Source: Paludicola sp. MB14-C6
GTDB lineage: Bacteria > Bacillota > Clostridia > Oscillospirales > Ruminococcaceae
Length of the DNA stretch: 64,000 nt
NCBI RefSeq assembly: GCF_030908625.1
Contig: NZ_CP133133.1
Coordinates: forward strand, 1,674,001 to 1,738,000
Direction: 5' to 3'
Part shown: in pieces, positions 1,644 to 62,276 of the stretch
How positions within the stretch are numbered: position 1 is the first letter of the stretch
Layout: each line of letters begins with the position of its first letter
Program-made: the position numbers and the translations under genes
The notes under the pieces: generated by a model
Databases searched by the model: none
Told to the model about the DNA's origin: nothing
What the model saw: only the letters and a program-made list of their open reading frames with translations

Positions 1644-1679
1644 AAAAGTCCCCTAAATCATCAAATTTAGGGGACTTTT
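1644..1679. terminator. 15-bp hairpin with flanking T-runs
   Basis: Arms 1644-1658 and 1665-1679 (AAAAGTCCCCTAAAT and its exact complement) enclose a 6-base loop. T residues flank both sides, so it could stop transcription coming from groEL (minus strand). It overlaps the candidate right end of the IS1182 element, so it may belong to that element. Confidence 0.55.
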
Positions 1680-1690
1680 TCTACAAGCTG

Positions 1691-1714: not shown

Positions 1715-1743
1715 TTCTACTATTCTATACAACCCACAAAGGA

Positions 1744-3405
<1,662 letters not shown>

Positions 3406-58055: not shown

Positions 58056-58178
58056 TAAAGCTTGAATGAGTTAATTCATTACTTATTACAGTATGATTAT
58101 GTAATGAATTTTGGCTTTTTATATAATATGTAGAACGCTATGTTGTAATTATTGATGCATATTTAATTATTATGTAAT

Positions 58179-58207
58179 GTAGGGAACGACCCCTGTGTCG
58201 TTCCGTC
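58179..58207 (+). repeat. REP-like palindrome upstream of the RAYT gene
   Basis: The unit starts GTAGGG and holds exact arms GGAACGAC (58183-58190) and GTCGTTCC (58197-58204). It ends 22 bases before the RAYT start codon, where REP elements commonly flank their transposase genes. It matches, inverted, a second copy inside the gene at 58487-58513. Confidence 0.75.
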
Positions 58208-58229
58208 TTATGAAATGAGATGATTTTAT

Positions 58230-58700
58230 TTGAACGAATTACCACAAAGAAAATTACAACGATTAAAAGGTTATGATTATTCCCACAATGGCGCATATTT
58301 TATTACAATATGTACGCAAAATCGTCAGCAATTATTTGGTGAAATATTTAATAATACTATGCTGATAAATAATGCTGGTAAAATGATCGAAGAAAGGCTA
58401 TTAAATATTATAAACGATGTTGTTTTTCTTGATAAACATATTATAATGCCCGACCATATTCACGCAATTGTTATTATTAATCACAACGGAACGACACAGG
58501 GACCGTTCCCTACGTTGTCGGAGATTGTGCAGAGATTTAAAACAATAACGACAAAATTGTATATAGACAGTGTAAAAAATGGTGAGTATCCACCGTTTGA
58601 CAAGAAAATCTGGCAAAAATCATTTAATGATAGAATTATCCGTAATGAAAAGGAATATCGTGAGATTAGACAATATATAGATGAAAACCCATTGAAATAG
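58230..58700 (+). CDS. REP-associated tyrosine transposase (RAYT, Y1 HUH family)
   Basis: RAYTs are single-copy relatives of IS200 transposases that cut single-stranded DNA at REP hairpins. The 156-residue protein has the family start PQRKLQRLKGYDYSHNGAYF followed by ITICTQNRQQL, the HUH motif in MPDHIHAIVII (about 70), and the C-terminal helix with the likely catalytic Tyr (EYREIRQYIDENPL). The start is TTG at 58230, with TGAGATGA upstream as a weak site. A REP-like hairpin lies just before the gene and an inverted copy lies within its coding region. A decayed relative occurs at 62003-62263. Confidence 0.9.
   Translation: MNELPQRKLQRLKGYDYSHNGAYFITICTQNRQQLFGEIFNNTMLINNAGKMIEERLLNIINDVVFLDKHIIMPDHIHAIVIINHNGTTQGPFPTLSEIVQRFKTITTKLYIDSVKNGEYPPFDKKIWQKSFNDRIIRNEKEYREIRQYIDENPLK
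58487..58513 (-). repeat. REP-like palindrome inside the RAYT coding region
   Basis: Read on the minus strand from 58513, it begins GTAGGGAACG and ends GTGTCGTTCCG, matching the copy at 58179-58205 in all but 3 of 27 positions. In the gene it encodes residues around NGTTQGPFPTLS. Confidence 0.75.
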
Positions 58701-58724: not shown

Positions 58725-58770
58725 ACGATACCCTCAGAAAAAAGTTATTACTCTTTTCTGAGGGTATCGT
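58725..58770 (+). terminator. Long hairpin after the RAYT gene
   Basis: The arms 58725-58741 and 58754-58770 are exact 17-base complements (ACGATACCCTCAG core) followed by ATTTCTTTATTT. Confidence 0.75.
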
Positions 58771-58989: not shown

Positions 58990-59457
58990 ATGAAAAATGA
59001 AGTAAAACAGACAGCACATTCAAGTTATAGGTGCGAATACCATATAGTGTTTGCACCAAAATATAGAAGAAAAATAATTTATAAAGATTTGCGAAGAGAT
59101 GTAGGTGAAATATTTCGAAAATTATGCACAGAAATGAAAGTGGAAATAATAGAAGCGGAGGCATGTGTAGATCACATACACATGTTAGTAAGTATTCCAC
59201 CGTATATGAGTATATCACAGTTTGTAGGAACACTCAAGAGTAAGAGTGCACTGATGATATTCGATAGGCATGCAAATTTAAAATATAAATATGGATCACG
59301 AAATTTTTGGTGTAGAGGTTATTTTGTAGATACAGTAGGAAAAAATGAAAAGAAAATAGCAGAGTACATTCGAAACCAATTAGAAGAAGATTATGCAAAA
59401 GACCAAATTTCATTTAAAGAATATACGGACCCGTTTACGGGTAATCAAGTGAAATAG
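58990..59457 (+). CDS. tnpA: IS200/IS605-family TnpA transposase
   Basis: The 155-residue Y1 HUH transposase moves single-stranded DNA. It has YHIVFAPKYRRKIIYKDL near the start, the HUH motif CVDHIHMLVSIPP (about 61), a FWCRGYFVDTVG segment (about 108), and the catalytic Tyr in KKIAEYIRNQ (about 131). The length is normal and it appears intact. The GGAGG site ahead of the ATG is predicted to be masked in the mRNA. It is only remotely related to the RAYT gene 290 bases upstream. Confidence 0.95.
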   Translation: MKNEVKQTAHSSYRCEYHIVFAPKYRRKIIYKDLRRDVGEIFRKLCTEMKVEIIEAEACVDHIHMLVSIPPYMSISQFVGTLKSKSALMIFDRHANLKYKYGSRNFWCRGYFVDTVGKNEKKIAEYIRNQLEEDYAKDQISFKEYTDPFTGNQVK

Positions 59458-62002: not shown

Positions 62003-62263
62003 TTGGAATTATCTAAACGAAAGCAGATCGGTTAGATAAATATAATTATTCGACATACGGGGCATATTTTGTAACGATATGTGTTGCGAATAGACATAGA
62101 TTGTTGTGGAAAAATGTCGAGGATTATAAAACAATTTAAAGGATCAATAACCAAATAGATTGTTTTTTCTATCTGGCAAAAATCATTTAATGATAGGATA
62201 ATCCGCAATGAGCAGGAGTATTGTGAGATTTGGCAATACATAAATGAAAATTGGTTAAAATGA
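62003..62263 (+). pseudogene. RAYT pseudogene (internally deleted, frameshifted)
   Basis: TTG 62003 reads LELSKRKQ, then needs a frame change to continue RLDKYNYSTYGAYFVTIC and VANRHRLL, matching the start of the intact RAYT at 58230. After 62138 a gap follows. The final part resumes as IWQKSFNDRIIRNEQEY and QYINENWLK, with TGA at 62261-62263, nearly identical to the intact protein's C-terminus. The middle third, with the HUH motif, is missing. It is certainly inactive; a decayed second copy. Confidence 0.88.
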
Positions 62264-62276
62264 GAGGAAATTTAAA

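Follow-up and report, generated by a model that had tools for sequence, protein, structure and literature searches.

Among the systems closest to the locus described here are the REPtron of E. coli and subclass 2.4 of the TnpAY1 proteins. In the former, TnpAREP contacts the GTAG tag of the REP hairpin via its C-terminal tail and a bulge in the REP is needed for activity, and the text of the same article has it that group 3 enzymes without the C-terminal extension still cleave (PMC8266576). In subclass 2.4, which is Bertels's group 4, REPs are inserted within the tnpAREP genes with the reading frame left intact, generally between HuH and Y, and the article text suggests that the inserted REPs have little effect on the protein or its activity (Quentin et al. 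2018, PMC6006769). The same text describes double-foot REPs, which could be made by a central deletion between inverted REPs. REPs have also been described inside various genes (Di Nocera et al. 2013, PMC3733652). The phenomenon of REPs within RAYT genes is already in print with subclass 2.4, and among the papers listed by text searches of the openly licensed PMC literature we found no account of it besides that in PMC6006769. The passages of that article on the insertions, which are drawn in its Figure S10, mention neither a fixed order of plus-strand then minus-strand copies nor the matching of copies within one gene.

Here we describe a RAYT gene in a 64,000-nucleotide stretch of the genome of Paludicola sp. 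MB14-C6 (NZ_CP133133.1, positions 1,674,001 to 1,738,000; this whole stretch is referred to as the window). We consider it probable that this gene is of a kind that carries predicted cognate REP hairpins in its coding sequence, kept alike by a process acting at the level of the DNA.

The RAYT gene of the window

The window protein belongs to Y1_Tnp (PF01797) with an E-value of 3.4e-07 in Pfam, and matches the NCBIfam model REP_Tyr_transpos, the better of two matching models, at 4.8e-21 and 75.2 bits against a cut-off of 80. The HuH, WQ and Y...N motifs of the Y1 HuH domain are all present, and H76, H78, Q129, Y149 and N153 are invariant across 56 aligned sequences, the window protein included. 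The AlphaFold model has a mean pLDDT of 88.7 and matches the TnpA proteins of ISDra2 and IS608 as well as the E. coli TnpAREP-REP complex 4er8; the motif of L008, a paralogue in the same genome, aligns with Y115-N119 of 4er8, and L008 was in turn aligned to the window protein. A GTAG-tagged palindrome adjoining the gene, which is a hallmark of RAYTs, is also present. The claim that the gene is RAYT-like, put forward in an earlier reading made from the DNA letters alone (the sequence-only reading), is supported. A loss of the catalytic tyrosine, suspected from the motif SFNDRII, was ruled out, since Y149 in QYIDENP is the catalytic residue and is present.

Table 1. Positions in the window of the RAYT gene, its motifs, the associated REP copies and a nearby remnant.
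Feature	Positions	Strand	Basis or description
RAYT / TnpAREP-like Y1 HuH transposase gene, 156 aa, TTG start	58230-58700	+	Pfam, NCBIfam, AlphaFold model
HuH motif His76-Ile-His78	58455-58463	+	Both His residues unchanged in an alignment of 56 sequences
Catalytic Tyr149 to Asn153	58674-58688	+	Tyr149 and Asn153 unchanged in an alignment of 56 sequences
Stop codon at the position of the tail Trp in most genes	58698-58700	+	Comparison of 129 genes
Upstream GTAG-tagged REP	58179-58204	+	8-bp stem, 6-nt loop
Internal GTAG-tagged REP, site M, in coding region	58488-58513	-	6-bp stem, residues 87-95
Left arm of 31-nt inverted repeat	58176-58206	+	Repeat search
Right arm of 31-nt inverted repeat	58486-58516	-	Repeat search
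Second RAYT remnant, middle missing (site N to just past site M)	62017-62269	+	See section on RAYT remnants

Like subclass 2.4 as described in PMC6006769, the gene set to which the window gene belongs has the HuH, WQ and Y..N motifs and the GT[AG]G tag, one double-foot REP of the kind reported for the subclass is left in a remnant (L129, see below), and the window gene has its in-frame REP between H78 and Y149. The motifs given for the subclass in Table 1 of that article are NH[IFV]H, WQ and YIxNNP, whereas the window protein has DHIH, WQ and YIDENP, NH[IFV]H being found in most of the gene set; the window protein is also shorter than the reported subclass median of 194 residues. With the E. 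coli REPtron (PMC8266576; 4er8) the locus shares the Y1 HuH fold and GTAG-tagged hairpins beside the gene, but its upstream stem is regular, unlike the bulged REPs described for E. coli, and one copy lies inside the gene. The IS200/IS605 elements IS608 and ISDra2 have the same catalytic fold and give the top structural matches; elements of this family carry subterminal hairpins at the element ends (PMC6006769), unlike the window RAYT. A separate, intact-looking IS200/IS605-type TnpA gene lies 289 nt 3' of the RAYT gene (58990-59457; NF033573) and is the clearer IS200 member, scoring 151.7 bits with the IS200 model (cut-off 55) against 24.1 for the RAYT. Between these two genes there is an inverted repeat (58725-58770) with 21-nt arms that are 95% complementary and separated by a 4-nt gap, which may be terminator-like or an element end.

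The hairpins of the window gene

The hairpin upstream of the gene and the one inside it lie in the two arms of an inverted repeat that is 90% complementary, with 279 nt between the arms. The copies agree at 28 of 31 positions, and two of the three differences fall in the stem. Both copies start with GTAG, each hairpin forms on the strand bearing the GTAG, and the assignment of both to one GTAG-tagged family is supported. Besides the internal copy, no other 31-mer of the window reaches 22 matches to the upstream one. The sequence-only reading had described a hairpin at 58179-58207 ending 22 nt 5' of the TTG start at 58230 and an inverted copy encoding NGTTQGPFPT, and each of these points is confirmed. 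Its claim that the copies are nearly identical also stands, but its count of 3 mismatches in 27 positions should be 2 in 27 or 3 in 31, since the third mismatch sits in the flank.

When folded as DNA, the upstream hairpin reaches -7.8 kcal/mol, a stability equalled in none of 200 shuffles. Since there are two mismatches at the top of the hairpin, the internal copy on the minus strand is limited to the 6-bp stem with a 10-nt loop, and its -5.0 kcal/mol was equalled in 4 of 200 shuffles. In the AlphaFold model its residues lie in a loop that follows the HuH strand (76-83) and precedes the helix at 96-116. The window gene ends at NPLK, the point at which 118 of 129 genes have a Trp and a short tail (three further genes, without the motif, are outside this count). 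The weak internal stem together with the stop codon where most genes have the Trp tail suggests that the internal REP, or this copy of the RAYT, is in early decay. Elsewhere in the window (1644-1684, minus strand), a perfect hairpin of 14 bp with an 8-nt loop is found behind a GTAG.

Internal hairpins among related genes

Relatives were collected by a contig search, which gave 80 loci, and by whole-genome searches of 61, 291 and 40 genomes (overlapping sets). A RAYT match was obtained in 5 of the 61 genomes, with none in the 7 same-genus genomes searched, and in 79 of the 291 genomes of the same-class search. After removal of duplicates there were 132 intact genes, 130 of which, the window gene among them, had both landmarks. 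These genes were collected through their similarity to five RAYTs, some of which contain internal REPs, so the frequency of internal REPs among them is not that of RAYTs at large. An internal hairpin was counted if its foot read GT[AG]G and its stem was 7 or longer, and the null consisted of 50 codon permutations per gene that kept the protein and its codon use. Two sites are distinguished, site N on the plus strand around residues 33-44, and site M on the minus strand between HuH and WQ. In the model of the window protein site N maps to a two-strand turn (37-46); the window gene has no REP there.

Internal hairpins were found in 85 of the 130 genes, compared with a null mean of 3.56 and a null maximum of 7, the remaining 45 including the window gene. 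Site M was occupied in 75 genes (null mean 1.3), the 6-bp copy of the window not being among these, site N in 51 (null 0.96), and both sites in 46 (null 0.02). There was a plus-strand hairpin at M in 12 genes (null 0.56), a minus-strand hairpin just before HuH in 3 (null 0.38), and single genes had a minus-strand hairpin at N or after WQ. The hits before HuH in L071 and L087 and that after WQ in L089 are A+T-rich and look like chance, leaving the hairpin of L019 as the only REP-like one before HuH. A further control left the tag unchanged and permuted everything else. Stems of at least 6 were present at 105 of the 116 M sites bearing a tag (null 10.5, with a maximum of 16) and at 76 of the 88 N sites bearing one (null 5.2, with a maximum of 12). 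In 47 of 51 genes the plus-strand N hairpin begins in the same codon phase. On a FastTree tree of 118 loop-free columns, in which 55 of 127 forks are open so that change counts are rough, the 75 genes with an M hairpin require at least 49 changes of its stem, and the presence of the hairpin changed at least 27 times at M and at least 23 times at N.

Since pairing is far above that in codon-permuted controls with the same proteins, the internal hairpins are kept beyond the needs of the protein. This was the check that the sequence-only reading had proposed, and the palindrome proved to be neither freely lost among homologues nor unique to the window. The internal copies are real REPs and not coding coincidences: the sequence of the stem turns over, while pairing and the matching within a gene are kept.

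Orientation and matching of the internal copies

At least two internal hairpins were present in 57 genes, and their order was plus then minus in 51, minus then plus in 5, and plus, minus, minus in 1. The window gene shares the plus then minus order, its plus copy lying 5' of the start codon. These are counts of genes rather than of independent events, and one ancestral pair that was inherited would also give a common orientation.

The 8-nt arms at N and M of the same gene were identical in 33 of 46 genes and agreed at 7 or more bases in 43, while 11.8% of between-gene arm pairs agreed to this extent; 5,000 permutations never reached the observed total. Relatedness was allowed for by comparing each gene with its nearest relative of less than 95% identity in the loop-free columns (mean 69%), and the gene's own N/M pair matched better than pairs formed with that relative in 27 cases, worse in 5 and equally in 14. 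Copies flanking the gene (up to 300 nt outside) behave likewise, with flanking and internal arms agreeing at 7 or more of 8 bases in 24 of 31 genes compared with 10% between genes.

REP copies in related genomes and in the genome of the window

The protein of L019, from a Eubacteriaceae MAG, is the sister of the window protein (local support 89). Its gene contains a 26-nt REP identical to the upstream REP of the window, at a third site just before HuH, and has no hairpin at site M. Flanking copies are found upstream (one base shorter) and downstream (a single mismatch), and the hairpin strands are minus upstream, minus inside and plus downstream. Ten copies of this REP are present in the L019 genome at up to 3 mismatches, five of them exact, with none in the control. 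This RAYT apparently takes its TAG stop from the GTAG foot of the downstream REP (L019, 2010-2052). Elsewhere on the tree, L156 and L039 have the same stem as the window and L019 REP at site N, and L156 has it also at M; the M stem of L039 differs by a change that is paired between its two arms.

Of 11 RAYT loci read in the complete Chakrabartyella piscis genome, 7 have a plus and minus pair, with stems that mostly differ. One REP occurs exactly inside three RAYT loci, two of which have identical proteins, and is found 36 times in that genome when up to 3 mismatches are allowed, with no match in the control. Larger arrays were also seen: in L136 site N inside the RAYT gene holds six tagged REPs (696-971), most of them spaced by 42 nt, and in L146 site M of the RAYT holds three (1733-1856, minus strand), spaced by 51 nt, with three more upstream, 132 nt apart.

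The REP family of the window is small and rare in its own genome, which consists of one contig of 2.94 Mb and holds four full-length RAYT matches and three fragments. With up to 3 mismatches allowed, the GTAG-tagged pattern gave 7 matches, located in 6 places, and none in the control; the untagged stem pattern was found in 7 places at up to 3 mismatches compared with 5 in the control, and in 4 places with at most one mismatch. The other RAYT genes of this genome likewise contain hairpins: one plus and one minus in L006, an internal tagged hairpin with one mismatch in L007, and in L008 one at each of N and M, 1 and 2 mismatches from the perfect-stem pattern. The stems differ. The L006 hairpin has one exact copy in the genome, which is inside the L006 gene, and one at 3 mismatches.

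Possible upkeep of the internal copies

The internal REP copies are in frame and confined to a few sites, and most often two of them occur together with their tags facing outward (GTAG hairpin ... hairpin CTAC). In the explanation that we consider probable, REP turnover, by copying or conversion within one REP family and perhaps carried out by the RAYT, would keep the in-gene and flanking copies alike; the gene would therefore travel with a substrate that its protein presumably recognises, whatever benefit this may bring. The window gene would have one copy before the start codon and one at site M, the latter having begun to decay. Against this explanation stand the 45 genes that lack an internal hairpin at stem 7, the five genes with the order minus then plus, the one with plus, minus, minus, the order of copies in L019 and the rarity of the window REP in its own genome.

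The main rival is passive insertion, the printed view for subclass 2.4, according to which REPs land widely and those that are in frame in tolerant parts of a RAYT stay without upkeep. Although we regard it as somewhat unlikely, it is in keeping with the location of site M in a loop and of site N in a turn, with the repeated changes in hairpin presence on the tree and the third site in L019, and with the little impact on activity proposed in the text of Quentin et al. 2018 (PMC6006769), and one old inherited pair could have yielded the common orientation without upkeep. What it explains poorly is the predominance of plus then minus, the single codon phase of most N hairpins, the better match of a gene's own pair than of pairs with its nearest relative, and pairing that survives many stem changes. 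Orientation and within-gene matching speak against simple tolerated insertion, without settling function. That the peptide and not the DNA hairpin is conserved is barely credible. Synonymous recodings of the window protein do already match the upstream copy at about 22 of 31 positions (mean 22.2, sd 1.4), because the peptide itself is a translated REP, but the 28 matches observed were reached by 3 of 20,000 recodings, and pairing across the genes exceeds the codon-permuted controls by far.

Two forms of regulation also have to be weighed. The protein might, as the sequence-only reading suggests, bind hairpins of its own gene, here the upstream and internal ones as single-stranded DNA, and thus limit its expression, and the hairpins do bear the GTAG tag contacted by E. 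coli TnpAREP (PMC8266576), while the active-site residues checked are all present in the protein. The chance of such autoregulation seems small to us, given that the internal stem is weak in the window gene and that 45 of the 130 genes have no internal hairpin at stem 7; the window protein also has no C-terminal tail of the kind that contacts GTAG in E. coli, though tail-less group 3 enzymes are described as cleaving (PMC8266576). Control at the level of RNA, in which the upstream and internal copies would pair in the mRNA and link the 5' leader with the central part of the gene, appears improbable. In the minimum-energy RNA fold of 58160-58700 both arms do pair, at -123.3 kcal/mol compared with -97.6 (sd 5.6) for 100 shuffles (z -4.6), but any inverted repeat would pair in this way, and leader pairing is not general since in 54 of the 130 genes REPs occur inside the gene but are absent from the 300 nt outside it.

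RAYT genes with their own REPs bear on two questions, the role of RAYTs for their hosts and the spread of REPs. They are a natural record of REP specificity in which the enzyme and its likely target are named together, and the two-copy, oriented and matched design offers a direct way to test whether RAYTs move or convert REPs. A bolder reading, which we think rather unlikely, is that the RAYTs of this group are self-contained elements, with an oriented cognate REP pair built in and kept in step with the specificity of the protein by enzyme-driven REP-to-REP conversion. A transferred gene would then bring a seed REP with it, and could be cut at its own REPs with loss of the active-site core.

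RAYT remnants

In the second RAYT remnant of the window, site N is joined to the right flank of site M and both hairpins are gone. This remnant has frameshifts and stops, and shares 86% identity with the window gene across 80 nt close to the 3' end. The alignment of the remnant L129 with L109 stops where the N REP ends and resumes where the M REP starts, and a single double-foot hairpin is left. L131 and L132 break off at the N REP or as much as 8 bases beyond it, and L195 starts two or three bases before it. When read by hand, the breaks in L010, L129, L131, L132, L169, L180, L191 and L195 were apparently at internal REPs, and those in L005, L148, L193 and L205, among others, were clearly elsewhere.

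An automated breakpoint test on 23 remnant loci placed 11 of 33 breakpoints in a REP or within 10 nt of one, which compared with 7.2 expected is not significant (P ~0.08), and the test is noisy in both directions because BLAST gives imprecise ends and the 33 include breakpoints from adjacent intact genes. Eight of 31 remnant loci had been dropped from it by hand, namely the arrays L136 and L146, the degenerate L145, L147, L203 and L204, L200 as the same event as L132, and L207, which overlaps the structure of L191. Ends less than 130 nt from a contig end were also dropped as possible assembly artefacts, 18 loci touching a contig end, and an HMM-based list of 60 ends was noisier still and left out. 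RAYT breakage at internal REPs is a lead only, and deletion between short repeats would also explain remnants with edges at REPs. Self-excision of the 5' part of the gene via the internal hairpin, a suggestion of the sequence-only reading, is possible.

Two of the 5' fragments have distinctive surroundings. In the complete C. piscis genome, the fragment L169 (589-708) ends at site N and lies 45 nt before a full RAYT. The fragment L132 (501-651), which ends a few bases past the N REP, is shared with L200 at 96% over 1.1 kb in two genomes of one genus, and it lies directly 5' of a putative der GTPase gene.
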